Shown here piece by piece: positions 3,616 through 43,170 of a stretch of DNA of 64,000 nt. The notes beneath the pieces were generated by a model. The model made no database searches. It saw only the letters and a list, made by a program, of their open reading frames with translations, and was not told the origin of the DNA. Source of the stretch: Semisulcospira habei. Taxonomy: Eukaryota > Mollusca > Gastropoda > Semisulcospiridae. Made by a program: the position numbers and the translations under genes. Numbering within the stretch: the first letter of the stretch is position 1; every line of letters begins with the position of its first letter. The stretch spans positions 136,774,640 through 136,838,639 of the forward strand of contig BTPG01000003.1 in NCBI GenBank assembly GCA_036245525.1, read 5' to 3'.

Positions 3616-4268
3616 TTACCAAAAGCTCACACTCACACATACACACACACCGTTACAAAAACAGTTACTGCCAAAGATTGCTAACGCACTGAAAATGCAT
3701 CTAACTATACGCATAAGAAAGTAATAGAGCCAACTTTAATTATACAAAATAAGCATCTTTTTTTTCGATTTGTGATTCACAAATTGAAGTGAAACTTGTC
3801 GTGACTCCACCTCATGAATATTTCGAAGAATAGCCGATGGCACATGTAAGCGGGGACGAGGAGGTAATGGAGGTGCGGCGCAATTTGCAAAAGGTATGGT
3901 CGCAGGTAGTGGTCGCATGTCGGAGGCGTCCCGTCGCAAGTCGCACGCCGGCCAAAAACGACCTAAAAACATGTATTATATATGTTGGCCGCCGCTCGGA
4001 GAGCGGTTCTATACCCATATCCAGTTTTAAAAAATGGGACATTTGGAGATTTTTCGCGGCCTTTATTTCGCGTCTTCAGGGCGATTTCTTACAAATGGTC
4101 AAACACTATCTGCATAAAAAGTGTGCAAACATTACATTCAGATTATTGCTTTTGTATTTGTGTTTGTTGCATTTTAACGATGAGTTGACACTGCACCATT
4201 TGATATTCCATTTTATGTGAAAATCTCTAAAATAATGTTATTTTATTTTAATTAATTCACATTTCTGA

Positions 4269-4269
4269 T

Positions 4270-4340
<71 letters not shown>
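4269..4340. repeat. (CA)n microsatellite
   Basis: Pure CA tract within the left flanking repeat. The equivalent tract at 17790-17866 is longer. Confidence 0.95.
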
Positions 4341-4343
<3 letters not shown>

Positions 4344-4521
4344 GCGCGAATGCAGTATTTCCATGACACTCAAGTAGCATAGTAGTCCTAACGGAGAGTG
4401 CAAGTTTAGATATTCACCCTGACAAGCCGGTAAAGCACAACGGGAACTGACTCGCGCGGTTTTGTCAAGTTCTCGTTTTTCTGCTCAGATGTCTGTGACA
4501 CAGAGTGCGTGTGCGACAGGG

Positions 4522-4760
4522 TTAACCCCTTCACTGCCAGCGGACACGAAATGCTCATCCGGCTGAAATCAGCGCACGTTGACCGACCTTCGCGTGAAGA
4601 TGAACAAAATGTAACGGGGACCATAGGAGTAAACAACATGGGACTATCAAGAGACATAAATCCTCATGAGCTCCCGCGACTGCGCCGGGGGGCTCATAAG
4701 GGTTTATGTCTCTTGCAGATGGATATTTCCTTCGACTTTCCGCGGCAGTTAAGGGGTTAA
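4522..4760. mobile_element. piggyBac-like MITE, family C (complete copy)
   Basis: Bounded by TTAA on both sides, with inverted ends CCCCTTCACTGCC and GGCAGTTAAGGGG. An inner hairpin pairs GAGACATAAATCCTCATGAG with CTCATAAGGGTTTATGTCTC. TTAA targets plus CCC...GGG ends are the hallmark of piggyBac superfamily elements (established). No transposase is encoded, so it is non-autonomous. Confidence 0.8.
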
Positions 4761-4776
4761 TGAGCTGGTTGTGTTG

Positions 4777-4864
4777 CCGTCCATGGATTGTTTAAAGTTA
4801 CTGCGGGGAGGTGTCGAGCGAGCTCGGCACCTCCCCGCTCAAACTTCACACCGTCCATGGACAT
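4777..4864. repeat. Palindrome inside the flanking repeat
   Basis: Outer arms GTCCATGGA/TCCATGGAC and inner stem GCGGGGAGGTGTCGAGC pairing with GAGCTCGGCACCTCCCCGC. Also present at 18308-18396 in the right flanking copy. Confidence 0.75.
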
Positions 4865-4994
4865 AACCTTACCATTTAATTAACTCGGTCACAGCTGTCC
4901 GTCCGTCTGTCCGTTTGTTCATACGCCTATTCATATTTCCATTAGTGGTAAAAGAGCAAGACCGGTCCCACCCAGGTATGCATCCGGTCACTCT

Positions 4995-5104
4995 GGTCCC
5001 GACGCCTCAAAATGTCCGAGCAGAAGAATGTGAAGCACTCGGGGGCGTTTCGATCGGTATTCGTAGTTAGTAACTACAGGCTCCGATTTACTCATCAGGG
5101 AACC
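4995..5104 (-). ncRNA. Type I hammerhead ribozyme, copy 1
   Basis: On the minus strand: stem I GGTTCC, core CTGATGA, stem II closed by G-C, GAAA, stem III ACGCC/GGCGT, cleavage after GTC, stem I partner GGGACC. Predicted cut between 5001 and 5000. See copy at 17253-17362 for detail. Confidence 0.85.
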
Positions 5105-6374
5105 GGCCTACAATTCTCAGTCCATTTCTTGGTGTCTTCCTCCCAGTGTGTCGCATTTAAATCCTTACATAAGGACATGTTATCCGTGTAGTCCATGCAT
5201 ATAACTGTAGTCCTGACGCGGCATTATTGATGTCCAGTATGGTCGCTTTCAAACCCTTGCAGTATTCCTGACGCGGTGTTATAGATGTCTAGTATGAACG
5301 CTTTCAAATAGTCCTTGCAGTATTCCTGATGCGGTGTTATTGATGTCAAGTATGATTGCTTCAAATCCTTGCAGGGTCCAGTCTTGTGTCGGGATCCGAT
5401 TGTATCGCTGCGTCTTCTGTTCCCTCGGCGCTTGTGCCTGTCCGTTCCAAGATCATTTCCTGCTCAGCGGGGCTTAGCCGCGATAAGATACAAGGAACCG
5501 TTGGGCGGAGTTTGCGTGTATCGACGTGGGAGTCATATTCTTTGTTTATTAATCCGTCCGTTTTGACGGATCAATCCCAGACTGAGTGTCGTTGTTGTTG
5601 TTGTTGATTCTCCGTGTATTCGTGTTTGTAGACGATGCCGGTTGTTTGTGCGGCTGTGTTGCCTTCCATACGACAGACTAGTGTTTCTAGTATTGTCCTC
5701 TGTGTAGGTGGTACGCAGTGTTGCCGTGGTGCATATCTCACAGTTGATGCTTTAAAATCAGCTTATTGTTGTAGCTGTTGCTGCTGTTTTGGTGTGGCTG
5801 TCGTTTCGTTGATTGCTGTTGTTGCCGTTGTGGGCCGCCTGAATTGTATACCGTTTTGGTGGTAGGTGCCGGGTTTTGTCGTTGTAGAAGGGCCTTCAAT
5901 TCTTCGAGTGCTTCACAGAATAGTTGGCCTCGCTTGTTGCGAGCGTTCCAGTCCTCCTTTCACTTTTGTGCGCTTTAGAACGAGTTCTTTGTGACCAGTG
6001 TTGCCTGGTGTTGTAGATTAAAGTTGGTGCTGCGTAGTTTTGTGGTCGGTGTGAAGTAGACAATGTCCGTTTCCTCTTATTCTTAGTCCGTGTTGTAGAC
6101 AAAGTGGCTTGCCTTTCTCGTTGGCGGGAGGTAAGTCTTTTAGCAAACAGTATGACGTCATAGCGTGTAGCGATTCATGACAGATGTCACTTCAGTAGAG
6201 GGTTTTGCCGTGGGGGCTGCAGGGCCGATTGTTGGCCTCAGTTGAGTAGCTGGCTCACACGTGTCTTGTTAAAGTAGCAGAAAAAAAGGATCGCAGTGTA
6301 GTTTGTCGCTTGTTCTATAGCTTGTCGATCGTGTGGTGTTAATTGGTGATTTTCGTTCCATGTTCATTTTCTCA

Positions 6375-6552
6375 GGTGTGGGGAGTGCGTTCCAACCACC
6401 CTATTATAGGTGTGGGAGTGGGTCTCAACCACCCTATTATAGGTGTGGGAGTGGGTCTCAACCACCCTATTATAGGTGTGGGAGTCGGTCTCAACCACCC
6501 TATTATAGGTGTGGGAGTGGGTCTCAACCACCTTATTATAGGTGTGGGAGAA
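6375..6552. repeat. 33-bp minisatellite of unit F1
   Basis: Five to six copies of a 33-bp repeat, each carrying the dyad CCTATAATAGG with GTGTGGGAGTGGGTCTCAAC. Degenerate copies continue to about 6665. Confidence 0.92.
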
Positions 6553-7621
6553 TGGTCGAAGAGCTCCTTCTTGCTTGTGGTTTCTTGGTTGTATAGTCAG
6601 TCGTTCCATCCACCCTTTATCAGGCGTGGGGAATGGGTCTCAACCACCCTGTTTCAGGTGTGGGAAACCATCGATGACTTTCTTCTTCTTTGTAGTTCTC
6701 CGTTGACATAGATGTCTTGGGTCTTGATCCCCGTTTCTGGCGGAGTTAGGGCTGGCAGCTGTTGTTTCCTTCGTCGTCTCGCTTCGAATGAGGCTTTGGC
6801 CGGCTGGGTGTGAGGGCAGAGCGGCTTAGTGCAGCGCGCGTGCCGATGACGTATGGTCGAATCCCATTGGTCGGCTGTCGTGGTCGGACTGATCGCCCGC
6901 TGTCCGTGTGAGATAGCGTCTTGTGACCTTGGTTGCAGGTGGAGTCTATCTTCTATGTCGGCCAGTCCATTTTTGTGGTATGCTATATCTCTGTCAGCCG
7001 TATAGACGTGGAGATGAGAGGTAGTTGTCTGTTGATGGTGTATATCTGGATGCTTAGAGTAAACATCTGTCATGACACGTCCGTCTCCCGTAAGTGTTTG
7101 CTAGAAAGTGAGCTAGCTGGATTGCTCTTTTACCGGCACTGATATGAGCTATCTCCTCTTATTTAAGAGGCGCTCTCTGCTTTGTTGAATCAGTGTTCCG
7201 ATCCCCTCAGGACGGTGAGCCTGAGGTTGGGGTTGTGTGCATTGAAGCGTGGCCACTCCTAACGGTGCGCGCGTGGCCGGGGCCGATAGCGGTGGCGTCA
7301 TCCTGATTGCATCATCATTCTGGCCGCGAAGTGAAGATGAGTGATGGTGGGCCGCTGTATTACGCTTAGTCCCTTCGTGTGTTTGTCGATTCAATCTTGA
7401 TGGTCCAGTAGAGCAATGAAGATGCGATATTTTTCCTGTTCGCACAGTCCGAGTGAAAGGAGAATGAAGTGGGCATAATATGCCAGGATTTGAAAGCGAG
7501 GCGTAGGTGAAACCAAAAGTGACCGGTTTTGCACATTGCTGAGGATAGCAAACGACCCTAAAAAAATCGGGTGGCTATTCACGGGTCCTAGTCAGGTCGG
7601 TGCTACGCACCTTCAATCCAG

Positions 7622-8714
7622 TGGTAAAAGAGCAAGACCGGTCCCACCCAGGTATGCATCCGGTCACTCTGGTCCCGACGCCTCAAAATGTCCGAGCAGA
7701 AGAATGTGAAGCACTCGGGGGCGTTTCGATCGGTATTCGTAGTTAGTAACTACAGGCTCCGATTTACTCATCAGGGAACCGGCCTACAATTCTCAGTCCA
7801 TTTCTTGGTGTCTTCCTCCCAGTGTGTCGCATTTAAATCCTTACATAAGGACATGTTATCCGTGTAGTCCATGCATGTAACTGTAGTCCTGACGCGGCAT
7901 TATTGATGTCCAGTATGGTCGCTTTCAAACCCTTGCAGTATTCCTGACGCGGTGTTATAGATGTCTAGTATGAACGCTTTCAAATAGTCCTTGCAGTATT
8001 CCTGATGCGGTGTTATTGATGTCAAGTATGATTGCTTCAAATCCTTGCAGGGTCCAGTCTTGTGTCGGGATCCGATTGTATCGCTGCGTCTTCTGTTCCC
8101 TCGGCGCTTGTGCCTGTCCGTTCCAAGATCATTTCAAACTCCTGCTCAGCGGGGCTTAGCCGCGATAAGATACAAGGAACCGTTGGGCGGAGTTTGCGTG
8201 TATCGACGTGGGAGTCATATTCTTTGTTTATTAATCCGTCCGTTTTGACGGATCAATCCCAGACCGAGTGTCGTTGTTGTTGTTGTTGATTCTCCGTGTA
8301 TTCGTGTTTGTAGACGATGCCGGTTGTTTGTGCGGCTGTGTTGCCTTCCATACGACAGACTAGTGTTTCTAGTATTGTCCTCTGTGTAGGTGGTACGCAG
8401 TGTTGCCGTGGTGCATATCTCACAGTTGATGCTTTAAAATCAGCTTATTGTTGTAGCTGTTGCTGCTGTTTTGGTGTGGCTGTCGTTTCGTTGATTGCTG
8501 TTGTTGCCGTTGGCTTGTTGGGCCGCCTGAATTGTATACCGTTTTGGTGGTAGGTGCCGGGTTTTGTCGTTGTAGACTGAAGGGCCTTCAATTCTTCGAG
8601 TGCTTCACAGAATAGTTGGCCTCGCTTGTTGCGAGCGTTCCAGTCCTCCTTTCACTTTTGTGCGCTTTAGAACGAGTTCTTTGTGACCAGTGTTGCCTGG
8701 TGTTGTAGATTAAA
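7622..8714 (-). mobile_element. Ribozyme-bearing repeat unit F2 (truncated)
   Basis: Same minus orientation and constant end as F1, joined head to tail to it. It stops at 8714 at the point where F1 would continue into TTGGTGCTGCG, and there meets an inverted unit. The hammerhead is at 7671-7780. Confidence 0.85.
7671..7780 (-). ncRNA. Type I hammerhead ribozyme, copy 2
   Basis: All core and stem elements identical by eye to copy 1. Predicted minus-strand cut between 7677 and 7676. Confidence 0.85.
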
Positions 8715-9145
8715 GGACCCTGCAAGGATTTGAAGCAATCATACTTGACATCAATAACACCGCATCAGGAATACTGCAAGGATTTGAAAGCGTTCATACT
8801 AGACATCTATAACACCGCGTCAGGAATACTGCAAGGGTTTGAAAGCGACCATACTGGACATCAATAATGCCGCGTCAGGACTACAGTTACATGCATGGAC
8901 TACACGGATAACATGTCCTTATGTAAGGATTTAAATGCGACACACTGGGAGGAAGACACCAAGATATGGACTGAGAATTGTAGGCCGGTTCCCTGATGAG
9001 TAAATCGGAGCCTGTAGTTACTAACTACGAATACCGATCGAAACGCCCCCGAGTGCTTCACATTCTTCTGCTCGGACATTTTGAGGCGTCGGGACCAGAG
9101 TGACCGGATGCATACCTGGGTGGGACCGGTCTTGCTCTTTTACCA
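8715..9145 (+). mobile_element. Ribozyme-bearing repeat unit R0 (short)
   Basis: First plus-orientation unit. It holds only the last 431 bp: 55-bp repeats, hammerhead and constant end TTTTACCA. The junction with F2 at 8714/8715 is the array's inversion point. Confidence 0.85.
8987..9096 (+). ncRNA. Type I hammerhead ribozyme, copy 3
   Basis: Complete core, three stems and GTC site. Predicted cut after 9090. Confidence 0.85.
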
Positions 9146-10124
9146 CTCTGTGAAGCACTCGAAGAATTGAAGGCCCTTCTACAACGACAAAACCCGGCAC
9201 CTACCACCAAAACGGTATACAATTCAGGCGGCCCAACAAGCCAACGGCAACAACAGCAATCAACAAAACGACAGCCACACCAAAACAGCAGCAACAGCTA
9301 CAACAATAAGCTGATTTTAAAGCATCAACTGTGAGATATGCACCACGGCAACACTGCGTACCACCTACACAGAGGACAATACTAGAAACACTAGTCTGTC
9401 GTATGGAAGGCAACACAGCCGCACGAACAACCGGCATCGTCTACAAACACGAATACACGGAGAATCAACAACAACAACAACCACACTCGGTCTGGGATTG
9501 ATCCGTCAAAACGGACGGATTAATAAACAAAGAATATGACTCCCACGTCGATACACGCAAACTCCGCCCAACGGTTCCTTGTATCTTATCGCGGCTAAGC
9601 CCCGCTGAGCAGGAAATGATCTTGGAACGGACAGGCACAAGCGCCGAGGGAACAGAAGACGCAGCGATACAATCGGATCACGACACAAGACTGGATCCTG
9701 CAAGGATTTGAAGCAATCATACTTGACATCAATAACACCGCATCAGGAATACTGCAAGGATTTGAAAGCGTTCATACTAGACATCTATAACCGCGTCAGG
9801 AATACTGCAAGGGTTTGAAAGCGACCACTATACTGGACATCAATAATGCCGCGTCAGGACTACAGTTACATGCATGGACTACACGGATAACATGTCCTTA
9901 TGTAAGGATTTAAATGCGACACACTGGGAGGAAGACACCAAGAAATGGACTGAGAATTGTAGGCCGGTTCCCTGATGAGTAAATCGGAGCCTGTAGTTAC
10001 TAACTACGAATACCGATCGAAACGCCCCCGAGTGCTTCACATTCTTCTGCTCGGACATTTTGAGGCGTCGGGACCAGAGTGACCGGATGCATACCTGGGT
10101 GGGACCGGTCTTGCTCTTTTACCA
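9146..10124 (+). mobile_element. Ribozyme-bearing repeat unit R1 (5'-shortened)
   Basis: Starts at CTCTGTGAAGCACTCG, mid-unit, and runs to the constant end. Predicted monomer between cleavage sites 9091-10069 is 979 nt. It carries small private differences (for example CAACAAAACG near 9262), so it is not a mere copy of R2-R4. Confidence 0.85.
9966..10075 (+). ncRNA. Type I hammerhead ribozyme, copy 4
   Basis: Complete core and stems. Predicted cut after 10069. Confidence 0.85.
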
Positions 10125-10837
10125 CCGTTAGGAGTGGCCACGCTTCGATGCACACAACCCCAACCTCAGGCTCACCGTCCTGAGGGGATCGGAACACTGA
10201 TTCAACAAAGCAGAGAGCGCCTCTTAAATAAGAGGAGATAGCTCATATCAGTGCCGGTAAAAGAGCAATCCAGCTAGCTCACTTTCTAGCAAACACTTAC
10301 GGGAGACGGACGTGTCATGACAGATGTTTACTCTAAGCATCCAGATATACACCATCAACAGACAACTACCTCTCATCTCCACGTCTATACGGCTGACAGA
10401 GATATAGCATACCACAAAAATGGACTGGCCGACATAGAAGATAGACTCCACCTGCAACCAAGGTCACAAGACGCTATCTCACACGGACAGCGGGCGATCA
10501 GTCCGACCACGACAGCCGACCAATGGGATTCGACCATACGTCATCGGCACGCGCGCTGCACTAAGCCGCTCTGCCCTCACACCCAGCAAAGCCTCATTCG
10601 AAGCGAGACGACGAAGGAAACAACAGCTGCCAGCCCTAACTCCGCCAGAAACGGGGATCAAGACCCAAGACATCTATGTCAACGGAGAACTACAAAGAAG
10701 AAGAAAGTCATCGATGGTTTCCCACACCTGAAACAGGGTGGTTGAGACCCATTCCCCACGCCTGATAAAGGGTGGATGGAACGACTGAATACAACCAAGA
10801 AACCACAAGCAAGAAGGAGCTCTTCGACCATTCTCCC

Positions 10838-11027
10838 ACACCTATAATAGGGTGGTTGAGACCACACTCCCACACCTATAATAGGGTGGTTGAGACCGAC
10901 TCCCACACCTATAATAGGGTGGTTGAGACCCACTCCCACACCTATAATAGGGTGGTTGAGACCCACTCCCACACCTATAATAGGGTGGTTGGAACGCACT
11001 CCCCACACCTGAGAAAATGTGGATGGA
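10838..11027. repeat. 33-bp minisatellite of unit R2
   Basis: About five 33-bp copies with dyad CCTATAATAGG. One copy carries GAGACCACACTCC instead of GAGACCCACTCC. Confidence 0.92.
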
Positions 11028-12265
11028 ACGAAAATCACCAATTAACACCACACGATCGACAAGCTAGAACAAGCGACAAACTACACTGCGATCCTTTTTT
11101 TCTGCTACTTTAACAAGACACGTGTGAGCCAGCTACTCAACTGAGGCCAACAATCGGCCCTGCAGCCCCCACGGCAAAACCCTCTACTGAAGTGACATCT
11201 GTCATGAATCGCTACACGCTATGACGTCACTACTGTTTGCTAAAAGACTTACCTCCCGCCAACGAGAAAGGCAAGCCACTTTGTCTACAACACGGACTAA
11301 GAATAGAGGAAACGGACATTGTCTACTTCACACCGACCACAAAACTACGCAGCACCAACTTTAATCTACAACAACTGGTCACAAAGAACTCGTTCTAAAG
11401 CGCACAAAAGTGAAAGGAGGACTGGAACGCTCGCAACAAGCGAGGCCAACTATTCTGTGAAGCACTCGAAGTATTGAAGGCCCTTCTACAACGACAAAAC
11501 CCGGCACCTACCACCAAAACGGTATACAATTCAGGCGGCCCAACAAGCCAACGGCAACAACAGCAATCAACGAAACGACAGCCACAACAAAACAGCAGCA
11601 ACAATAAGCTGATTTTAAAGCATCAACTGTGAGATATGCACCACGGCAACACTGCGTACCACCTACACAGAGGACAATACTAGAAACACTAGTCTGTCGT
11701 ATGGAAGGCAACACAGCCGCACAAACAACCGGCATCGTCTACAAACACGAATACACGAAGAATCAACAACAACAACAACGACACTCAGTCTGGGATTGAT
11801 CCGTCAAAACGGACGGATTAATAAACAAAGAATATGACTCCCACGTCGATACACGCAAACTCCGCCCAACGGTTCCTTGTATCTTATCGCGGCTAAGCCC
11901 CGCTGAGCAGGAAATGATCTTGGAACGGACAGGCACAAGCGCCGAGGGAACAGAAGACGCAGCGATACAATCGGATCCCGACACAAGACTGGACCCTGCA
12001 AAGATTTGAAGCAATCATACTTGACATCAATAACACCGCATCAGGAATACTGCAAGGACTATTTGAAAGCGTTCATACTAGACATCTATAACACCGCGTC
12101 AGGAATACTGCAAGGGTTTGAAAGCGACCATACTGGACATCAATAATGCCGCGTCAGGACTACAGTTACATGCATGGACTACACGGATAACATGTCCTTA
12201 TGTAAGGATTTAAATGCGACACACTGGGAGGAAGACACCAAGAAATGGACTGAGAATTGTAGGCC

Positions 12266-12375
12266 GGTTCCCTGATGAGTAAATCGGAGCCTGTAGTTAC
12301 TAACTACGAATACCGATCGAAACGCCCCCGAGTGCTTCACATTCTTCTGCTCGGACATTTTGAGGCGTCGGGACC
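12266..12375 (+). ncRNA. Type I hammerhead ribozyme, copy 5
   Basis: Complete core and stems. Predicted cut after 12369. Confidence 0.85.
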
Positions 12376-13491
12376 AGAGTGACCGGATGCATACCTGGGT
12401 GGGACCGGTCTTGCTCTTTTACCACTGGATTGAAGGTGCGTAGCACCGACCTGACTAGGACCCGTGAATAGCCACCCGATTTTTTTAGGGTCGTTTGCTA
12501 TCCTCAGCAATGTGCAAAACCGGTCACTTTTGGTTTCACCTACGCCTCGCTTTCAAATCCTGGCATATTATGCCCACTTCATTCTCCTTTCACTCGGACT
12601 GTGCGAACAGGAAAAATATCGCATCTTCATTGCTCTACTGGACCATCAAGATTGAATCGACAAACACACGAAGGGACTAAGCGTAATACAGCGGCCCACC
12701 ATCACTCATCTTCACTTCGCGGCCAGAATGATGATGCAATCAGGATGACGCCACCGCTATCGGCCCCGGCCACGCGCGCACCGTTAGGAGTGGCCACGCT
12801 TCAATGCACACAACCCCAACCTCAGGCTCACCGTCCTGAGGGGATCGGAACACTGATTCAACAAAGCAGAGAGCGCCTCTTAAATAAGAGGAGATAGCTC
12901 ATATCAGTGCCGGTAAAAGAGCAATCCAGCTAGCTCACTTTCTAGCAAACACTTACGGGAGACGGACGTGTCATGACAGATGTTTACTCTAAGCATCCAG
13001 ATATACACCATCAACAGACAACTACCTCTCATCTCCACGTCTATACGGCTGACAGAGATATAGCATACCACAAAAATGGACTGGCCGACATAGAAGATAG
13101 ACTCCACCTGCAACCAAGGTCACAAGACGCTATCTCACACGGACAGCGGGCGATCAGTCCGACCACGACAGCCGACCAATGGGATTCGACCATACGTCAT
13201 CGGCACGCGCGCTGCACTAAGCCGCTCTGCCCTCACACCCAGCCAAAGCCTCATTCGAAGCGAGACGACGAAGGAAACAACAGCTGCCAGCCCTAACTCC
13301 GCCAGAAACGGGGATCAAGACCCAAGACATCTATGTCAACGGAGAACTACAAAGAAGAAGAAAGTCATCGATGGTTTCCCACACCTGAAACAGGGTGGTT
13401 GAGACCCATTCCCCACGCCTGATAAAGGGTGGATGGAACGACTGAATACAACCAAGAAACCACAAGCAAGAAGGAGCTCTTCGACCATTCT

Positions 13492-13665
13492 CCCACACCT
13501 ATAATAGGGTGGTTGAGACCCACTCCCACACCTATAATAGGGTGGTTGAGACCGACTCCCACACCTATAATAGGGTGGTTGAGACCCACTCCCACACCTA
13601 TAATAGGGTGGTTGAGACCCACTCCCACACCTATAATAGGGTGGTTGGAACGCACTCCCCACACC
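13492..13665. repeat. 33-bp minisatellite of unit R3
   Basis: Five copies of the CCTATAATAGG-centred 33-bp repeat, with degenerate copies upstream from 13379. Confidence 0.92.
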
Positions 13666-14936
13666 TGAGAAAATGTGGATGGAACGAAAATCACCAATTA
13701 ACACCACACGATCGACAAGCTAGAACAAGCGACAAACTACACTGCGATCCTTTTTTTCTGCTACTTTAACAAGACACGTGTGAGCCAGCTACTCAACTGA
13801 GGCCAACAATCGGCCCTGCAGCCCCCACGGCAAAACCCTCTACTGAAGTGACATCTGTCATGAATCGCTACACGCTATGACGTCACTACTGTTTGCTAAA
13901 AGACTTACCTCCCGCCAACGAGAAAGGCAAGCCACTTTGTCTACAACACGGACTAAGAATAGAGGAAACGGACATTGTCTACTTCACACCGACCACAAAA
14001 CTACGCAGCACCAACTTTAATCTACAACACCAGCAACACTGGTCACAAAGAACTCGTTCTAAAGCGCACAAAAGTGAAAGGAGGACTGGAACGCTCGCAA
14101 CAAGCGAGGCCAACTATTCTGTGAAGCACTCGAAGAATTGAAGGCCCTTCTACAACGACAAAACCCGGCACCTACCACCAAAACGGTATACAATTCAGGC
14201 GGCCCAACAAGCCAACGGCAACAACAGCAATCAACGAAACGACAGCCACACCAAAACAGCAGCAACAGCTACAACAATAAGCTGATTTTAAAGCATCAAC
14301 TGTGAGATATGCACCACGGCAACACTGCGTACCACCTACACAGAGGACAATACTAGAAACACTAGTCTGTCGTATGGAAGGCAACACAGCCGCACAAACA
14401 ACCGGCATCGTCTACAAACACGAATACACGGAGAATCAACAACAACAACAACGACACTCAGTCTGGGATTGATCCGTCAAAACGGACGGATTAATAAACA
14501 AAGAACATGACTCCCACGTCGATACACGCAAACTCCGCCCAACGGTTCCTTGTATCTTATCGCGGCTAAGCCCCGCTGAGCAGGAAATGATCTTGGAACG
14601 GACAGGCACAAGCGCCGAGGGAACAGAAGACGCAGCGATACAATCGGATCCCGACACAAGACTGGACCCTGCAAGGATTTGAAGCAATCATACTTGACAT
14701 CAATAACACCGCATCAGGAATACTGCAAGGATTTGAAAGCGTTCATACTAGACATCTATAACCGCGTCAGGAATACTGCAAGGGTTTGAAAGCGACCACT
14801 ATACTGGACATCAATAATGCCGCGTCAGGACTACAGTTACATGCATGGACTACACGGATAACATGTCCTTATGTAAGGATTTAAATGCGACACACTGGGA
14901 GGAAGACACCAAGAAATGGACTGAGAATTGTAGGCC

Positions 14937-15046
14937 GGTTCCCTGATGAGTAAATCGGAGCCTGTAGTTACTAACTACGAATACCGATCGAAACGCCCCC
15001 GAGTGCTTCACATTCTTCTGCTCGGACATTTTGAGGCGTCGGGACC
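14937..15046 (+). ncRNA. Type I hammerhead ribozyme, copy 6
   Basis: Complete core and stems. Predicted cut after 15040. Confidence 0.85.
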
Positions 15047-15808
15047 AGAGTGACCGGATGCATACCTGGGTGGGACCGGTCTTGCTCTTTTACCACCGTT
15101 AGGAGTGGCCACGCTTCGATGCACACAACCCCAACCTCAGGCTCACCGTCCTGAGGGGATCGGAACACTGATTCAACAAAGCAGAGAGCGCCTCTTAAAT
15201 AAGAGGAGATAGCTCATATCAGTGCCGGTAAAAGAGCAATCCAGCTAGCTCACTTTCTAGCAAACACTTACGGGAGACGTACGTGTCATGACAGATGTTT
15301 ACTCTAAGCATCCAGATATACACCATCAACAGACAACTACCTCTCATCTCCACGTCTATAGGCGGCTGACAGAGATATAGCATACCACAAAAATGGACTG
15401 GCCGACATAGAAGATAGACTCCACCTGCAACCAAGGTCACAAGACGCTATCTCACACGGACAGCGGGCGATCAGTCCGACCACGACAGCCGACCAATGGG
15501 ATTCGACCATACGTCATCGGCACGCGCGCTGCACTAAGCCGCTCTGCCCTCACACCCACGCAAAGCCTCATTCGAAGCGAGACGACGAAGGAAACAACAG
15601 CTGCCAGCCCTAACTCCGCCAGAAACGGGGATCAAGACCCAAGACATCTATGTCAACGGAGAACTACAAAGAAGAAGAAAGTCATCGATGGTTTCCCACA
15701 CCTGAAACAGGGTGGTTGAGACCCATTCCCCACGCCTGATAAAGGGTGGATGGAACGACTGAATACAACCAAGAAACCACAAGCAAGAAGGAGCTCTTCG
15801 ACCATTCT

Positions 15809-15982
15809 CCCACACCTATAATAGGGTGGTTGAGACCCACTCCCACACCTATAATAGGGTGGTTGAGACCGACTCCCACACCTATAATAGGGTGGTTGAG
15901 ACCCACTCCCACACCTATAATAGGGTGGTTGAGACCCACTCCCACACCTATAATAGGGTGGTTGGAACGCACTCCCCACACC
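15809..15982. repeat. 33-bp minisatellite of unit R4
   Basis: Five copies, same register as in R3. Confidence 0.92.
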
Positions 15983-17252
15983 TGAGAAAATGTGGATGGA
16001 ACGAAAATCACCAATTAACACCACACGATCGACAAGCTAGAACAAGCGACAAACTACACTGCGATCCTTTTTTTCTGCTACTTTAACAAGACACGTGTGA
16101 GCCAGCTACTCAACTGAGGCCAACAATCGGCCCTGCAGCCCCCACGGCAAAACCCTCTACTGAAGTGACATCTGTCATGAATCGCTACACGCTATGACGT
16201 CATACTGTTTGCTAAAAGACTTACCTCCCGCCAACGAGAAAGGCAAGCCACTTTGTCTACAACACGGACTAAGAATAGAGGAAACGGACATTGTCTACTT
16301 CACACCGACCACAAAACTACGCAGCACCAACTTTAATCTACAACACCAGGCAACACTGGTCACAAAGAACTCGTTCTAAAGCGCACAAAAGTGAAAGGAG
16401 GACTGGAACGCTCGCAACAAGCGAGGCCAACTATTCTGTGAAGCACTCGAAGAATTGAAGGCCCTTCTACAACGACAAAACCCGGCACCTACCACCAAAA
16501 CGGTATACAATTCAGGCGGCCCAACAAGCCAACGGCAACAACAGCAATCAACGAAACGACAGCCACACCAAAACAGCAGCAACAGCTACAACAATAAGCT
16601 GATTTTAAAGCATCAACTGTGAGATATGCACCACGGCAACACTGCGTACCACCTACACAGAGGACAATACTAGAAACACTAGTCTGTCGTATGGAAGGCA
16701 ACACAGCCGCACAAACAACCGGCATCGTCTACAAACACGAATACACGGAGAATCAACAACAACAACAACGACACTCAGTCTGGGATTGATCCGTCAAAAC
16801 GGACGGATTAATAAACAAAGAATATGACTCCCACGTCGATACACGCAAACTCCGCCCAACGGTTCCTTGTATCTTATCGCGGCTAAGCCCCGCTGAGCAG
16901 GAAATGATCTTGGAACGGACAGGCACAAGCGCCGAGGGAACAGAAGACGCAGCGATACAATCGGATCCCGACACAAGACTGGACCCTGCAAGGATTTGAA
17001 GCAATCATACTTGACATCAATAACACCGCATCAGGAATACTGCAAGGATTTGAAAGCGTTCATACTAGACATCTATAACACCGCGTCAGGAATACTGCAA
17101 GGGTTTGAAAGCGACCATACTGGACATCAATAATGCCGCGTCAGGACTACAGTTACATGCATGGACTACACGGATAACATGTCCTTATGTAAGGATTTAA
17201 ATGCGACACACTGGGAGGAAGACACCAAGAAATGGACTGAGAATTGTAGGCC

Positions 17253-17362
17253 GGTTCCCTGATGAGTAAATCGGAGCCTGTAGTTACTAACTACGAATAC
17301 CGATCGAAACGCCCCCGAGTGCTTCACATTCTTCTGCTCGGACATTTTGAGGCGTCGGGACC
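17253..17362 (+). ncRNA. Type I hammerhead ribozyme, copy 7
   Basis: Stem I pairs GGTTCC (17253-17258) with GGGACC (17357-17362) including one U-G pair. Then core CTGATGA; stem II with closing G-C, a TAA bulge, ATCGG/CCGAT and a distal GTAGTT/AACTAC hairpin; GAAA; stem III ACGCC/GGCGT with an inner CGAG/CTCG pairing; cleavage triplet GTC after 17356. All invariant hammerhead positions (established consensus) are met. The one oddity is the 3-nt bulge one pair above the core in stem II, which could slow catalysis. Because the open helix is stem I, it is type I. Confidence 0.86.
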
Positions 17363-17788
17363 AGAGTGACCGGATGCATACCTGGGTGGGACCGGTCTTG
17401 CTCTTTTACCAATGGTCGCAGGTAGTGGTCGCATGTCGGAGGCGTCCCATCGCAAGTCGCACGCCGGCCAAAAACAACCTAAAAACATGTATTATATATT
17501 ATGTTGGCCGCCGCTCGGAGAGCGGTTCTATACCCATATCCAGTTTTAAAAAATGGGACATTTGGAGATTTTTCGCGGCCTTTATTTCGCGTCTTCAGGG
17601 CGATTTCTTACAAATGGTCAAAAACTATCTGCATAAAAAGTGTGCAAACATTACATTCAGATTATTGCTTTTGTATTTGTGTTTGTTGCATTTTAACGAT
17701 GAGTTGACACTGCACCATTTGATATTCCATTTTATGTGAAAATCTCTAAAATAATGTTATTTTATTTTAATTAATTCACATTTCTGAT

Positions 17789-17789
<1 letters not shown>

Positions 17790-17866
<77 letters not shown>
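17790..17866. repeat. (CA)n microsatellite
   Basis: Longer allele of the tract at 4269-4340. Confidence 0.95.
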
Positions 17867-17874
<8 letters not shown>

Positions 17875-18052
17875 GCGCGAATGCAGTATTTCCATGACAC
17901 TCAAGTAGCATAGTAGTCCTAACGGAGAGTGCAAGTTTAGATATTCACCCTGACAAGCCGGTAAAGCACAACGGGAACTGACTCGCGCGGTTTTGTCAAG
18001 TTCTCGTTTTTCTGCTCAGATGTCTGTGACACAGAGTGCGTGTGCGACAGGG

Positions 18053-18291
18053 TTAACCCCTTCACTGCCAGCGGACACGAAATGCTCATCCGGCTGAAAT
18101 CAGCGCACGTTGACCGACCTTCGCGTGAAGATGAACAAAATGTAACGGGGACCATAGGAGTAAACAACATGGGACTATCAAGAGACATAAATCCTCATGA
18201 GCTCCCGCGACTGCGCCGGGGGGCTCATGAGGGTTTATGTCTCTTGCAGATGGATATTTCCTTCGACTTTCCGCGGCAGTTAAGGGGTTAA
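18053..18291. mobile_element. piggyBac-like MITE, family C (copy in right flank)
   Basis: Same 239 bp as 4522-4760, with TTAA on both sides. Here the inner loop reads CTCATGAGGG where the left copy has CTCATAAGGG. Confidence 0.8.
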
Positions 18292-18307
18292 TGAGCTGGT
18301 TGTGTTG

Positions 18308-18396
18308 CCGTCCATGGATTGTTTAAAGTTACTGCGGGGAGGTGTCGAGCGAGCTCGGCACCTCCCCGCTCAAACTTCACACCGTCCATGGACAGA
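18308..18396. repeat. Palindrome, right flank copy
   Basis: Duplicate of 4777-4864 with a short GA insertion at its end. Confidence 0.75.
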
Positions 18397-18600
18397 TAAC
18401 CTTACCATTTAATTAACTCGGTCACAGCTGTCTGTCCGTTTGTTCATACGCCTATTCATATTTCCATTAGTGATGTGCTTATATATTATGGCGAATTTTC
18501 CACAGCAGAAAAAGATTTCCGCATTAAAAAAAAAACCAAGATTACAACTAACGACTCATGTCAGTCCACAGGAGGGAACAGGCCACCGGGGAACAAGGCG

Positions 18601-27872: not shown

Positions 27873-28500
27873 TGTAACATAGTGAACTGAACTCAGTGTC
27901 TGATCTGTACTCACCATCACTATATTTCACAGCAATCTATACTCGCTGTACTGTATTTGACATTGGCTTGCCACCGGTTGTACTCTTGACATGCTGCACC
28001 CGACTGCTGGTGGGGTAAGTTTATTGTCTATTTTATTTGATTATTATATTTTTGATTATTATAATTATGATCGTATGTATGTCGGATTAGAATGATTTTT
28101 GTGTGTTTGGTGTTAGGATTGAATGGTGTCGTTTGATTATGCTTATAGCATTCTCCCTGATCAATCTGTTGTAGACTGCGTGAGTCTTGGAGCAGATTGA
28201 TCAGTGTGTGCTCTTTAATATTTATAGTGTTCATTCTTAAGTGAATTTTGTAGATTGTTCTGGATTTGATTCGGAATCATTTGGTTTTGTAACTATTTTG
28301 TCAATGTTATCGATTCATTATTTTGTGTGCATGGTTACATGATTTATATAGAAAAGTGAATGTTATAGTTATTTATATCGGTTATATTTATGTGGTGTTA
28401 ATATGTACTTTCGATGTTTATTTATTTATGTTGATTTGTCTTTGTCAGGGTTTGCTTAATAAATGAAAGGAACCCTTGCTGCGACTTCGCGCCTGTTACA
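27873..28500 (+). repeat. 5' long terminal repeat
   Basis: 628 bp, begins TGTAACA and ends TGTTACA (perfect 7-bp inverted ends). Polyadenylation signal AATAAA at 28458-28463, near the LTR end, implies a short R/U5. Confidence 0.95.
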
Positions 28501-28502
28501 TC

Positions 28503-28518
28503 TGGTGTCAGAAGTGAC
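28503..28518 (+). promoter_or_regulatory. Primer binding site (tRNA-Leu type)
   Basis: TGGTGTCAGAAGTG begins 2 nt after the 5' LTR. It is complementary to the 3' end of animal tRNA-Leu(CAG) including CCA (recalled), over 14 nt. Confidence 0.8.
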
Positions 28519-28533
28519 TCAACCCCCATCAGC

Positions 28534-29469
28534 ATGGAGGATCGGAAGGTGGACACAACAGCAGTCGAGGACCTCCAGCGGAAGGTGGCCGAGCTTCAGG
28601 CACAGCTGGATGCAGACCGGGGCCAACTGTCAGCGTCAGGCAGGACAGCACAGCCCAGCGCTTTCGTCCTTTCTGACCAAGCGAGGATCGCGCGCTTCTG
28701 TGACAGGCCACGTGATGCAGGCGACATCACTCTGCAAGACTGGCTGGACGACATCCATGCTGCTATCAGTTCGCGCAGGATCGAGAGCACCGACAGATCA
28801 GCCTTCGTTCTGGAACACCTTGGTGGCAAGGCGAGACGGGAGATCGTGGGCAGAGGTGGCATCAGCCTCTCGGGGGATAGGATCTTGTCCATCCTGGAGA
28901 AAGTTTTTGGTGATGGCGCATCACTTCCCAGATTACAGTCGCAGTTCTACTCCTATCGACAGGACAGGGAGGATCTGCTGACATGCTCACACAATCTTGC
29001 TGTTCTGGCGGACAAGATTCAAGGTGTAGAAAAAGACTCTGCTTTTTCCAAGCGGAAGGACATTATTTTGAAAGAGAGGCTTGCGGAAGCAGTTGCAGAT
29101 GTTACTCTAAGGAGAGAGCTGCGACGGCTGAATGAGGAGGTCCCTACACTGACGTTCTTTGATCTCCGTGATAAAGCCGTCCAGTGGATGGGTACCCCAG
29201 CGGCACTGCGTCCACGTCTGGAAGAGAAACAGACCCATAGTGAGCTCCTGGACATCCTAAAGTCTCAGCAGCAGCAGATCGCTCAGCTCACAGCTCAGCT
29301 GGAGGGCCTTACACGCCGTCACCAAGCAGAGGGCACAGCACGGAGCCAGCCAGGGGAAGCCCGTCGATGCTACATCTGTCATGCAACAGGACACCTTCAA
29401 CGGCACTGTCCACAGCGTCAGCAGAGCGGCCGAAGACGACCGTTAAACGGGAGACACCTGCCATTGTGA
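28534..29469 (+). CDS. gag: Gag polyprotein of the Ty3/gypsy element
   Basis: 311 codons, start ATG at 28534, 34 nt after the LTR. Gag forms the cytoplasmic virus-like particle and binds the element RNA. Residues about 8-30 form an N-terminal heptad-like helix (VEDLQRKVAELQAQL). The middle is a retrotransposon gag/capsid-type region with AFVLEHLGGKARREI and LQSQFYSYRQDREDLLTC. A second Gln-rich coil is near residue 245. A single CCHC zinc knuckle, CYICHATGHLQRHC, is near residue 285. The stop TGA is at 29467-29469. Pol overlaps in the -1 frame from 29367, with a candidate slip site at 29442. Intact, with no internal stops. Confidence 0.93.
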   Translation: MEDRKVDTTAVEDLQRKVAELQAQLDADRGQLSASGRTAQPSAFVLSDQARIARFCDRPRDAGDITLQDWLDDIHAAISSRRIESTDRSAFVLEHLGGKARREIVGRGGISLSGDRILSILEKVFGDGASLPRLQSQFYSYRQDREDLLTCSHNLAVLADKIQGVEKDSAFSKRKDIILKERLAEAVADVTLRRELRRLNEEVPTLTFFDLRDKAVQWMGTPAALRPRLEEKQTHSELLDILKSQQQQIAQLTAQLEGLTRRHQAEGTARSQPGEARRCYICHATGHLQRHCPQRQQSGRRRPLNGRHLPL

Positions 29470-32400
29470 GCCAGATGACAGGTGGACGAGGTCAATATGC
29501 TAGTGGCTCATCACGGCTGGAGAAAGCTGTTGGAGAGTGTCCCGTGGTAACTATAAACATTGGGGGGAGTGATGTAAAATGTCTTGTTGATACAGGCGCA
29601 CAGGTTTCAACCTTGACTGAGACATTCTTTAGACATGTTTTTAGTGACACAACACACATTGATGATGTTTCCCCTTACCTAAAGGTTTCCGGCGCTCAAG
29701 GCCTCGAGGTGCCATTTATTGGTTATGTAGAGCTAGACATTACAGTGATGAATAGAACTTTACCCAATATGGCATTCTTAGTGGTTAGAGATCCTCAGGG
29801 TGTCATGGCCGAGAGGAAGAAGAAGGTACCTGGTGTGCTCGGTTCCAACATCTTAAGACACCTGAAGACTGTCGAGGGAGGTAGCCATCCGGACTCGACT
29901 CTATGGCAAGGCGTAAGTGCCCTGTATGAAGAGAACGCCATTTCCGTGTCAAGCGACAGTTACGTGAAACCACTGGGGAGACGGCCCGTTCTGATCCCAG
30001 CACGCAGCCTAAAAGTAATCTCATGCACAACCAAGCCAGCTGCGCCGGGTACTACGCGCGACATTCTAGTCGAGCCATCGGACAAGCTGTACCTTCCGGC
30101 CGGAATCGGAGTTGGGAGATGCCTCTCTCAACTCAGCGATAAGGGGGTCGTACCAGTTCAGGTCGCTAATGTCAGTGACAGAGACATCTACCTGAAACCC
30201 TACGTCCCTATAGCATGTGCAGCTGAAGCCGACACCCCGCACCAGTACAGCGTGACTGTAACACAGGAAGAAATCCTCATCGAGGAAGCCACAGTACTGC
30301 CATCACACGATGCACTTAGAGACATCATGTCTGAAGTATCTGTCGGCGACATCACCCAAGAGCAGGGCCTGCGTCTCTCTACACTCCTCCACAGTTATGA
30401 GCATGTTTTTAGCAGAGGCGAGGATGACCTTGGCTTCTGCGATCTAATCCATCATCGTATCGTAACGGATGATGACACGGCCGTCAAGGTCCCACACCGC
30501 AGGATCCCACCCCAGTACTGGGCTGAAGTGAGGGACTATTTGCAGTCTGCTTTGAAACAGGGCATCATCCGAGAGTCATGCAGCCCTTATGCCTCACAGT
30601 GCGTTATTGCGAAAAAGAAAAATGGCAAGATCCGCTTTTGCGTTGATTATAGGGGATTGAATACTAAGACACACAAAGACGCCTACCCTTTGCCCAGAAT
30701 CGAGGAGGCCCTGGATGTGCTGAAAGGATCTAAATACTTCTGCAGCCTGGATCTAGCTCATGGCTTTAACCAGATTCCAGTGGCGCAAGAAGATATAGAA
30801 AAAACGGCGTTCCGGGTCGGCACTGGAGGTCTCTATGAATACACCAGAATGGCCTTCGGGCTTTGTAATGCCCCGGCCACATTCATGAGGGTAATGGACA
30901 AGATTTTTGGTGATCAGAACTTCCAGACCCTACTCATTTACGTTGACGACCTCCTGGTATTTGGGAAAAGCTTCGACGAGACGCTGGAAAGACTGGGAAT
31001 GGTGCTATCAAGGCTCTCAAACTTCAACTTAAAGGCACAGCCCAACAAATGCCACCTGTTTTTCAGCCGTCTGCGTTATCTTGGTCATATGGTTACACCT
31101 GAGGGAATACTACCCGACCCAGACAAAGTCTCCGCAGTGGCAGATTGGCAGCTGCCCGCCAGCGAGAAAGACTTACGGGCTTACCTCGGGCTGACCTCGT
31201 ATTACCGCCGATTTATACCTGGCTTTGCTCAGATCGCAGCCCCTTTGCACGCTCTGCTGAATAAAACACCAGGCTCGGGACGCAGCAAACGTCTGAGCGG
31301 ATGGAACGAGCAATGTACGCAGGCATTTCAGACCATGAAGCAAAAGCTAACAACAGCCCCAGTCCTCGGCTACCCAGATTTTACTCTACCCTACATCCTG
31401 GAGATTGACGCCAGCCTCCAAGGCCTGGGAGCTGTGTTATCACAAGAACAAACCGGAAAGCGAGTTGTCATTGGCTACGCCAGCAGGGGACTCAGGGAAA
31501 AAGAGACATCCATGAAAAGGTACAGCAGCATGAAGTTGGAATTGCTTGCGCTCCGCTGGGCAGTCACGGAGAAATTCAGAGATCTTCTGCAGGGCAGCAC
31601 CTTCACGGTCTATACTGATAACAATCCTCTCAGCTACATCCAGACATCCGCCAAGCTAGGTGCAGCAGAGACTCGCTGGGCCGCAGAACTGGCCAACTTT
31701 AATTTCACAGTGAAATACCGCTCTGGGCGATCTAATGGGAACGCGGACGCACTCAGCAGAAGGGAGGTCCATGTCGAGCAATTGATGGCAGAATGCGACG
31801 AGCCTCAAGCTGCAGCCACCGCCGTACCAAATGAAATTAGAACAGCCATCGTAAACCTCACTCCAGAGTTTGTTCTGCACGAAATCCAGGTCAGGTCTAC
31901 GCATACTTCTTCTCCTTCCTCCCTACCAGCAGCTGACCTGCCCAGGTTGCAACAGCATGATCCCACATTAAAAAGGGTCTGGCAGCTCTACAGAATTGGT
32001 CACAAACCCACCAAACGACAAGCAGCTAGGGAAAACCCCAACGTGCGGAAAATAATCCGCTGTTGGAACCAGCTAAGGGACAGGGACGGAACCCTTTATA
32101 GGGTGGCGCAGGACAACGGTAGAGACGTACTCCAGGTCATCCTTCCTTCATCACTGAAACCAGACGTTCTGAAAGCAGTCCACGATGACGCCGGGCACCC
32201 AGCAGCGGAGAAGACTTGCAAGCTTGCCCAGGGCAGGTGTTTTTGGCCAGGCATGATGGCTGATATCACCAGGTACACAAATGATTGTGAAAGATGTTTC
32301 TTTGCAAAGGAAGGGAGAAGAGTCCACACTACCATGGGAACGCTCACCGCCACCCATCCCCTAGAAGTCCTCGCAATGGATTTCACTCTTCTTGAACGTT

Positions 32401-33656
32401 CAACCAGTGGCCTGGAGAACGTGTTGGTACTGACCGATGTCTTCACGAAATTCACTCAAGCAGTCCCTTGCAAAGACCAAACAGCACAGAGTGTAGCGAA
32501 AGCCCTGGTAAACAGCTGGTTTCTCAAGTATGGCATACCCAAACGCCTGCACAGCGACCAAGGGAGGAATTTTGAGGGTGATGTCATAAAGGAACTATGC
32601 AAGCTGTATGGCATCGACAAGAGTCGCACCACACCATTTCACCCAAGCGGAAATGGCCAATGTGAGCGCTTCAATAGAACCATGCACGACCGACTGCGAA
32701 CACTCCCCGAAAGAGCGAAACGAAGATGGCCGGAACATTTGCCAGAGCTGGTCTTCTTCTATAATGCAACAGTTCACTCAACAACTGGATACACCCCATA
32801 CTTCCTGTTCTTTGGCCGAGACCCTTACCTGCCCATCGACAGCCTTCTTGGAATTCCTGGTGATGGAGTTTTGACGGATTCTCCCGTTAGGGTTGATGAC
32901 TGGCTCGCGGAGCACCAGAAGCGTCTCCAGCAAGCCCACAAACTGGCACAACAGCTGACGGATAGAGAGGTCTCAAGGCGACAGGAAGCTGCGGCCTCAA
33001 GGGTTAATGATGACGGCATTGCAGAGGGGACGACTGTTTACGCTCGCAATCGTCAGGTCAGAGGTCGAAACAAGATCCAAGACGCGTGGAATAGTGAACC
33101 GTACACAGTTTTACGGAGGCCAGATTCACAAGGAAACACTTACATGGTGCACTCTGCGGACGGTGGCGGATCTGTTAGGACACTACATCGTACCGAACTA
33201 CTCGTACCGCGATCGCCAGTGCAGCAAAGACCTCAGCCAACAGCCTCTTCTCCATCACCGTCGTCAACGAGCGACACTGGTGACGACAGTCCGGAGTCCC
33301 CATCAAGGCCAGACTCTGTGCGTGACCATCAGATTCTCACCACAAACGGTGACAGCGACAACAACCAGAGCTGTGATACCACTGCTGGTGACATGAGACA
33401 ACAGGTCAGAGATGGAGGTTCACCCTCAGGACGTGACCCCGGCAATGCTCAAGCAGGGGAGCGCAGCATTCCCCGGAGATCGACACGCCACAACAAGGGG
33501 TATCATAGCAACCCTCACCATCTCCCCGTTACGGCCATCCAGCAAGAAATGGGACTGTTTGAGAAACTGTTGACGACGCAAACTCTCCTGATGAAGATTC
33601 TCCTAGAAAGAGGCGTGGCAGGATATTTAGATGTTGTCGAGGACGCCAACTGTTAG
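29367..33656 (+). CDS. pol: Pol polyprotein (PR-RT-RNaseH-IN) of the Ty3/gypsy element
   Basis: Open frame of 1429 codons, expressed probably by -1 frameshift from gag, so the first ATG need not be used. Aspartic protease active site VDTGA near residue 74-78. Reverse transcriptase about 370-600 with RFCVDYRGLN and the catalytic YVDD at about 525-528. RNase H about 670-800 (EIDAS, TDNNPLSY, NADALSR). Integrase zinc finger HX-H...CX2C about 937-970 (HDDAGHPA, CERC), then catalytic D (AMDFT, ~1003), D (HSDQG, ~1062) and E (CERFNR, ~1099). The C-terminal part, about 1280-1400, is Ser/Pro-rich and low complexity. Stop lies 10 nt before the 3' LTR. No stop or frameshift seen. Together with gag it would supply all functions for reverse transcription and integration. 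Confidence 0.95.
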   Translation: MLHLSCNRTPSTALSTASAERPKTTVKRETPAIVSQMTGGRGQYASGSSRLEKAVGECPVVTINIGGSDVKCLVDTGAQVSTLTETFFRHVFSDTTHIDDVSPYLKVSGAQGLEVPFIGYVELDITVMNRTLPNMAFLVVRDPQGVMAERKKKVPGVLGSNILRHLKTVEGGSHPDSTLWQGVSALYEENAISVSSDSYVKPLGRRPVLIPARSLKVISCTTKPAAPGTTRDILVEPSDKLYLPAGIGVGRCLSQLSDKGVVPVQVANVSDRDIYLKPYVPIACAAEADTPHQYSVTVTQEEILIEEATVLPSHDALRDIMSEVSVGDITQEQGLRLSTLLHSYEHVFSRGEDDLGFCDLIHHRIVTDDDTAVKVPHRRIPPQYWAEVRDYLQSALKQGIIRESCSPYASQCVIAKKKNGKIRFCVDYRGLNTKTHKDAYPLPRIEEALDVLKGSKYFCSLDLAHGFNQIPVAQEDIEKTAFRVGTGGLYEYTRMAFGLCNAPATFMRVMDKIFGDQNFQTLLIYVDDLLVFGKSFDETLERLGMVLSRLSNFNLKAQPNKCHLFFSRLRYLGHMVTPEGILPDPDKVSAVADWQLPASEKDLRAYLGLTSYYRRFIPGFAQIAAPLHALLNKTPGSGRSKRLSGWNEQCTQAFQTMKQKLTTAPVLGYPDFTLPYILEIDASLQGLGAVLSQEQTGKRVVIGYASRGLREKETSMKRYSSMKLELLALRWAVTEKFRDLLQGSTFTVYTDNNPLSYIQTSAKLGAAETRWAAELANFNFTVKYRSGRSNGNADALSRREVHVEQLMAECDEPQAAATAVPNEIRTAIVNLTPEFVLHEIQVRSTHTSSPSSLPAADLPRLQQHDPTLKRVWQLYRIGHKPTKRQAARENPNVRKIIRCWNQLRDRDGTLYRVAQDNGRDVLQVILPSSLKPDVLKAVHDDAGHPAAEKTCKLAQGRCFWPGMMADITRYTNDCERCFFAKEGRRVHTTMGTLTATHPLEVLAMDFTLLERSTSGLENVLVLTDVFTKFTQAVPCKDQTAQSVAKALVNSWFLKYGIPKRLHSDQGRNFEGDVIKELCKLYGIDKSRTTPFHPSGNGQCERFNRTMHDRLRTLPERAKRRWPEHLPELVFFYNATVHSTTGYTPYFLFFGRDPYLPIDSLLGIPGDGVLTDSPVRVDDWLAEHQKRLQQAHKLAQQLTDREVSRRQEAAASRVNDDGIAEGTTVYARNRQVRGRNKIQDAWNSEPYTVLRRPDSQGNTYMVHSADGGGSVRTLHRTELLVPRSPVQQRPQPTASSPSPSSTSDTGDDSPESPSRPDSVRDHQILTTNGDSDNNQSCDTTAGDMRQQVRDGGSPSGRDPGNAQAGERSIPRRSTRHNKGYHSNPHHLPVTAIQQEMGLFEKLLTTQTLLMKILLERGVAGYLDVVEDANC
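29442..29448 (+). promoter_or_regulatory. Candidate -1 ribosomal frameshift site GTTAAAC
   Basis: G-TTA-AAC sits in gag phase 19 bases before the gag stop codon and inside the gag/pol overlap. A slip here continues into pol as KRETPAIVSQ. GTTAAAC is an established slippery heptamer in some nidoviruses. The exact site here is inferred. Confidence 0.6.
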
Positions 33657-42890: not shown

Positions 42891-42944
42891 TGTTCACTCA
42901 ACGACCAAAACCCACAACGATCCATGGAACATGGAAACAAATTG

Positions 42945-43077: not shown

Positions 43078-43170
43078 GTTTTCAGTGAGTGGCATAGATT
43101 CTCATGAGCCCCCCAAATGTGCCTGGGGCTCATAAAGTTCTATGTCTCTTGCAAATGGACGCCGAAATTA
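43078..43170. repeat. Family C hairpin, no termini
   Basis: GGCATAGATTCTCATGAGCC pairs with GGCTCATAAAGTTCTATGTC. Confidence 0.65.

Follow-up and report, generated by a model that had tools for sequence, protein, structure and literature searches.

A putative non-autonomous retroelement of Semisulcospira habei with a hammerhead-like motif and genomic copies that begin at the predicted cut

Introduction

A 64,000-nt stretch of the genome of the gastropod Semisulcospira habei (assembly GCA_036245525.1, contig BTPG01000003.1, forward-strand positions 136,774,640 to 136,838,639; hereafter, the window) contains a 12.5-kb array of seven repeat units, each with a hammerhead-like ribozyme motif. This raises the question of what kind of element the array represents and whether the ribozyme takes part in its multiplication. 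A first-pass annotation, made from the sequence of the window, had proposed a large non-autonomous ribozyme retroelement outside any described class. In the analysis reported here, the element is probably a non-autonomous, non-coding retroelement of ~2.67 kb that would borrow a reverse transcriptase, most likely of the Penelope type. Moreover, many copies elsewhere in the genome start precisely where the cut is predicted, suggesting that DNA copies are made from the cut RNA.

Units of the array

The unit at positions 12426-15096 was taken as reference (R1-2671), and the seven copies were mapped on it (Table 1). The 12.5-kb array is made of one element, with two minus-strand units to the left of five plus-strand units. 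Read on the hammerhead strand, the units have a constant 3' end, ...GGGACCGGTCTTGCTCTTTTACCA(C), and 5' ends that vary by truncation (R1 and R354 twice each, R1590, R1693 and R2239). The array is arranged head to head, and both its outer edges are 3' termini that point outward. A direct repeat of ~1.05 kb adjoins both edges; the divergence between its copies is about that found among the units, and a fifth substitution between the flanking sequences sits just outside the repeat. The reading of these flanking repeats as long terminal repeats was set aside, the array adjoining them with its own termini. Of the first-pass description, the seven units stand, and so does a size of 2.3-2.7 kb for four of them; the others measure 432, 979 and ~1094 bp. 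The annotation had overlooked that the array is inverted midway, that its units share a constant 3' end and may be truncated on the 5' side, and that a repeat flanks it.

The hammerhead-like motifs are present at all seven places originally proposed. The 110-nt layout GGTTCC-CTGATGA ... GAAACGCC ... GGCGTC|GGGACC is found in 7/7 copies, and a window search with CTGATGAGTAAATCGGAGCC retrieved positions 8993, 9972, 12272, 14943 and 17259 on the plus strand and 5079 and 7755 on the minus strand. The copies are near-identical (0.1-1.0% substitutions) and therefore count as one observation.

The view that the unit lacks a recognisable gene is upheld. Frames in the reference unit reach 141 aa at most, a 151-aa frame of another copy matched no Pfam family, and neither a reverse transcriptase nor a GIY-YIG frame was found in the unit by frame translation and Pfam searches (one of the six window proteins run against Pfam belongs to the element). 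Five frames compared among distinct copies are open in 10/18, 1/23, 2/20, 16/28 and 1/33 of them. A coding unit was rejected on these grounds: short frames, no Pfam match and frames broken in many copies.

Boundaries of the copies across the genome

The first-pass annotation had recommended a search for further copies in the same genome. In the assembly (1.98 Gb, 507 contigs), the unit has at least 70 matches (best 13 of 1,215 candidates scored) and its 180-nt 3' part at least 40, all 100% identical (best 40 of 1,266 candidates scored). Pieces were mapped in 14 loci, namely the window and 13 others (those named below carry the letter A). Among the 3' ends of the 77 mapped pieces, 53 lie at R2671, four at R2670 and two at R2669, the remainder belonging to pieces broken within a copy or by gaps. 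Of the 37 5' ends outside the inherited unit junction, nine fall at R2616, the base following GTC, in 7/14 loci and with seven different upstream 4-mers. No other position has more than two, although two further ends lie nearby, at R2618 and R2621. The excess at R2616 corresponds to a binomial log10 p of -22.7 if the ends are independent, an assumption that holds incompletely.

The genome-wide count relied on the exact first 26 nt of the tail (R2616-2671) preceded by three bases all differing from those of GTC. It gave 98 boundaries at the predicted scissile bond for this family (family A), against two at the control position one base 3' (27 fixed letters), two one base 5' and one six bases 3'; 471 tails are still attached to GTC, that is, uncut. 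In all mapped cases (9/9) and in 80/98 genome-wide boundaries (hand count), the base preceding R2616 is A; the boundary pattern itself bars C at this place and allows G and T. This A is perhaps non-templated or derived from the target.

A second family, B, was found beside a bare tail, or stub, in A8 (L025) and has only the hammerhead and the tail in common with family A. Between the two, N7 of the core differs and one apical pair of stem II is altered on both sides; the loop of stem III and the body are also different. The evidence from covariation is limited to these two families. The family-B tail shows 90 boundaries at the cut versus five one base further. A pattern allowing other stem-III lengths retrieved 191 places, family B included.

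Some boundaries run in series 54-60 bp apart, corresponding to tandem bare tails, and one insertion (L053) consists of stubs only, pointing outward. Runs of family-B tails with the same spacing occur at G000 C1:309100669-309101139 and C2:24793592-24793854. At A6, A7, A8 and A12, a leader precedes a full unit. Ten of the 40 listed 3' ends were examined over 2.7 kb upstream (seven without the element, two with antisense element, one in an array) and contribute nothing on the cut site.

The boundaries of the mapped copies also bear on the RNA that is copied. Tandem transcripts had been expected to yield monomers running from cut to cut; the genomic copies point rather to RNAs running from the cut to ~56 nt beyond the next cut. 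Since 56 nt separate the cut from the 3' end, copying would begin just downstream of a hammerhead and not at the end of the cut RNA.

The hammerhead-like motif

The type I layout that had been proposed is supported as a sequence-level prediction, the CTGANGA/GAAA core and stems I and III being found by a descriptor. This descriptor (CTGANGA; GAAA; stem I of at least 5, stem III of at least 4, stem II of at least 4 with a bulge of up to 4; loops of up to 60) was defined after the motif had been seen. Within the window it matches those seven places only, and it matches none of 1500 shuffles of unit length (0/1500). Random sequence totalling 2,940 Mb yielded 290 hits, or 0.013 expected per window; 15 of these hits are as strong as the observed motif. 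Stem II is broken by a 3-nt UAA bulge beside its first pair, next to the core, which was counted against the motif. The tail carries GGGACCGGTC and may form a 10-base pairing with the stem-I strand (-17.2 versus -7.5 kcal/mol for stem I). One may guess that binding of an enzyme to the tail could free the hammerhead. A search of IMG/VR did not find the motif.

The support for a hammerhead comes from the boundaries of other genome copies at the predicted scissile bond, and not from Rfam or folding. The element presents a hammerhead-like motif that standard models miss.

Orientation of the copies and target duplications

The outward arrangement of the window recurs. Among neighbouring pairs within 15 kb, eight point outward, none inward and 28 the same way (n=36; first 100 of the 471 places). 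Head-to-head arrangements are present in 4/14 loci (the window, A1, A4 and A8), that of A1 being interrupted by a gap. Outward 3' ends fit priming from both target strands. Duplications beside both edges were observed at A13 (66 bp, 100% identity), A6 (~71 bp, 96%) and the window (~1.05 kb). At the other loci, either no such duplication was seen or the mapping stopped short of an edge.

Taken together, the DNA shows copies that share a 3' end and vary at the 5' end, arrays that run both head to tail and head to head, and far more 5' boundaries at the predicted cut than at control positions. The following mechanism can be proposed. Arrays would be transcribed, and the hammerhead would cut the RNA at GUC|GGG. 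Synthesis of cDNA would start where the 56-nt tail ends, with nicked genomic DNA as primer. It may then halt early, which would leave a 5' truncation, or run off the end of the cut RNA, which would leave a boundary at R2616. By jumping between RNAs, the enzyme would build arrays, including runs of bare 56-nt stubs. If synthesis started on the tail that a cut RNA carries at its 5' end, a stub alone would result; if it started on the second tail of an RNA that is only partly cut, the product would be a leader plus a full unit, as at the four loci cited above. With both target strands cut and extended, cDNAs would progress inward from two sides until they met head to head, and the sequence separating the nicks (~1.05 kb in the window) would be left duplicated.

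On the whole, we somewhat favor a more general proposal, in which the hammerhead and its 56-nt tail form a portable cassette able to mobilize unrelated non-coding RNAs (at least two families). Hammerhead cutting in vivo would determine, with single-nucleotide precision, where the inserted cDNA has its 5' end. A Penelope-type enzyme would prime such RNAs from both strands at widely staggered nicks and jump between cut RNAs; one event could then produce the 12.5-kb head-to-head array with its duplication of ~1.05 kb. The 98 and 90 boundaries that two families show at one bond look like a genomic record of the cut. A role for the cut thereby becomes testable, namely in fixing the 5' end and allowing template jumping, and two-strand priming may be offered an in vivo counterpart.

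Weighing of the evidence

Several observations weigh against this interpretation. Concerning the motif, Rfam gave no match in the window at the gathering threshold, and relaxing the limit to E 10 brought up no hammerhead family for either the element or the second family, so that the covariance-model check suggested in the first-pass annotation went against it. Adopting the hammerhead fold would cost 5.2-8.3 kcal/mol relative to the minimum, the fold z-scores (-0.84 and -0.99) bring no support, and each of seven inspected hammerhead pairs has a pairing probability of at most 0.07. In 45 aligned family-A motifs, the core is not clearly better conserved than the remainder (variant positions: core 4/11, stem I 7/12, stem III 5/10, stem II 0/12, other 45/127, many of them stemming from single rows). 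Concerning the boundaries, none of the 5' ends of the window's own copies lies at the predicted cut, and the 98 genome-wide boundaries are not independent, CAA being found upstream in 41 of them and 20 upstream triplets overall (hand count). As for the target, a duplication of at least 60 bp stands beside both edges in just 3/14 loci, ~1.05 kb is an unusual length, and A4 shows nothing beyond a trivial match. For PAc, a Penelope-like element of Anolis, the hammerhead cut in vitro only with protein, mutants still inserted, and RNA-seq gave no ends at the cut (PMC11167929). Finally, no link was found between the GIY-YIG frames of the genome, including the long frame described below, and the tail of the element.

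The boundary at R2616 could also be explained by a reverse transcriptase stopping at a stable RNA structure instead of reaching a cut end. The region does fold stably, and cleavage is itself predicted from sequence. It should, however, be noted that a structural stop would have to act with one-base precision (98 versus 2 and 2) and to coincide with a cut predicted from the motif alone; moreover, the leader-plus-unit copies would require the enzyme to read through an identical downstream hammerhead first. We regard such a stop as quite improbable. A nuclease of the host or of the element might cut the same bond, the hammerhead being a relic or a chance resemblance, as the Rfam miss, the stem-II bulge and the unfavourable fold would suggest. 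Yet the cut falls exactly where the hammerhead core predicts it and family B retains that core, making a nuclease very improbable. A third possibility is tandem amplification of a DNA element of rolling-circle (Helentron-like) type, with which two features of the unit would agree, an internal inverted copy of its terminus and a hairpin near one end. Helentrons and Helitrons have fixed ends on both sides and produce no target duplication, whereas truncation is one-sided here, the constant ends point outward and duplications of 66, ~71 and ~1050 bp accompany three loci. This origin is extremely unlikely.

Other alternatives concern the arrangement of the array rather than the cut. Self-priming on an antisense template, in place of two-strand target priming, has been proposed for Penelope elements of Adineta with the same arrangement (PMC3846280), and it would agree with the trivial match at A4. 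However, two-strand priming simply accounts for both outer edges lying at the start site of reverse transcription and for the target duplication of the window, and the junction at 8715 is not the palindrome of one template, R1590 meeting R2239. Self-priming is therefore rather unlikely. The inverted array and its flanking repeats might also result from an assembly artefact or a later rearrangement and not from one insertion event: a difference of 0.4% between the flanking repeats would suit two haplotypes as well, and runs of N are present in the sibling loci A1 and A5. Against this, both edges end precisely at the 3' terminus of the element, and the outward arrangement recurs at A4, A8 and L053; an artefact is accordingly considered improbable.

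Comparison with known elements

The claim that the element matches no described class goes too far, the layout being Penelope-like. As in Penelope-like elements (PAc; Pen1-6 of Adineta vaga), tandem, inverted and 5'-truncated partial copies are associated with a hammerhead near the terminus and a short additional tail downstream (PMC11167929; PMC3846280), the hammerhead resting here on the descriptor and the boundaries instead of Rfam. PAc cuts and extends both strands in vitro and starts internally near its hammerhead (PMC11167929); likewise, reverse transcription would start internally downstream of the hammerhead here, and the target duplication is variable or absent. In contrast with Penelope-like elements, the unit has no reverse transcriptase or GIY-YIG frame, its stem III would have 5 bp where their hammerheads are described as minimal, without helix III or loop contacts (PMC7761336), and boundaries at the cut site are visible in the genome. 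The element would thus be no more than a non-autonomous derivative of a Penelope-like element, or its parasite.

Metazoan retrozymes also are non-coding tandem repeats with type I hammerheads and a presumed use of enzymes from Penelope-like elements (PMC7229834). Their RNAs are 170-400 nt long according to the same source, so that the unit of 2671 bp falls outside this range and is, as first noted, far longer. The size range of non-coding hammerhead retroelements would be widened about tenfold. The terminons of bdelloid rotifers share 5'-truncated head-to-tail arrays and hammerheads at 3' ends (PMC6431247); unlike them, the 40-nt junctions of the 14 loci have no telomeric repeats, genes are absent, and the window is located 136.8 Mb into a contig of 253.8 Mb. 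Within the open-licence literature searched, three traits look new: the unit size, the lack of a coding capacity and a footprint precise to one nucleotide.

Candidate helper enzymes

The genome contains at least 35 GIY-YIG matches at E≤0.001 (best 150 of 1,583 candidates scored). One of them, L054, is a frame of 584 aa whose residues 465-545 match GIY-YIG; it has 85 homologues, and 24 of these reach at least 900 aa. Pfam recognised GIY-YIG only, in L054 and in two long homologues, and the Protein Data Bank (PDB) offered no match. We take L054 to be a probable Penelope-type reverse transcriptase. Seven long insertions in sibling copies were also inspected; their long frames appeared by eye to be of LINE type, and none was taken as the helper.

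Features of the window

Table 1. Element units, hammerhead-like motifs and flanking repeats in the window
Feature	Position	Strand	Basis
Hammerhead-like motif, copy 1	4995..5104	-	sequence match and descriptor
Hammerhead-like motif, copy 2	7671..7780	-	sequence match and descriptor
Hammerhead-like motif, copy 3	8987..9096	+	sequence match and descriptor
Hammerhead-like motif, copy 4	9966..10075	+	sequence match and descriptor
Hammerhead-like motif, copy 5	12266..12375	+	sequence match and descriptor
Hammerhead-like motif, copy 6	14937..15046	+	sequence match and descriptor
Hammerhead-like motif, copy 7	17253..17362	+	sequence match and descriptor
Full unit, R1-2671	4945..7620	-	mapping on reference
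5'-truncated unit, R1590-2671; joins plus-strand units head to head at 8715	7621..8715	-	
5'-truncated unit, R2239-2671	8715..9146	+	mapping on reference
5'-truncated unit, R1693-2671	9147..10125	+	mapping on reference
5'-truncated unit, R354-2671	10123..12425	+	mapping on reference
Full unit, the reference R1-2671	12426..15096	+	
5'-truncated unit, R354-2670	15094..17411	+	mapping on reference
56-nt tail, R2616-2671, predicted cut to 3' end; also in the other six units	15041..15096	+	
Left flanking direct repeat, possible target duplication; final GTG common with element terminus	3896..4947	+	
Right flanking direct repeat; 4 substitutions and 4 indels relative to left copy	17412..18472	+	

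Within the unit, a 12-nt inverted copy of the terminus (GGTAAAAGAGCA / TGCTCTTTTACC) lies ~480 bp from the other end; it is found at 7124-7136 and, on the other strand, at 10254, 12910 and 15225, the terminus itself being at 4947. The flanking repeat contains two inverted repeats and a (CA)n tract (4640-4860 and 18170-18390). Short inverted matches inside it, also seen at 43093 and 62816, indicate that parts may be dispersed repeats.

Outside the array, two long frames at 28435-33656 on the plus strand (344 and 1470 aa) are gag-like and pol-like and resemble, by eye, a Ty3/Gypsy-type element. Three LINE-like reverse transcriptase frames (RVT_1) occupy 41796-42893 (minus), 52297-53358 (plus) and 55221-56075 (minus), and a GDSL-lipase-like frame (49660-50529, minus) stands upstream of LINE-type frames.

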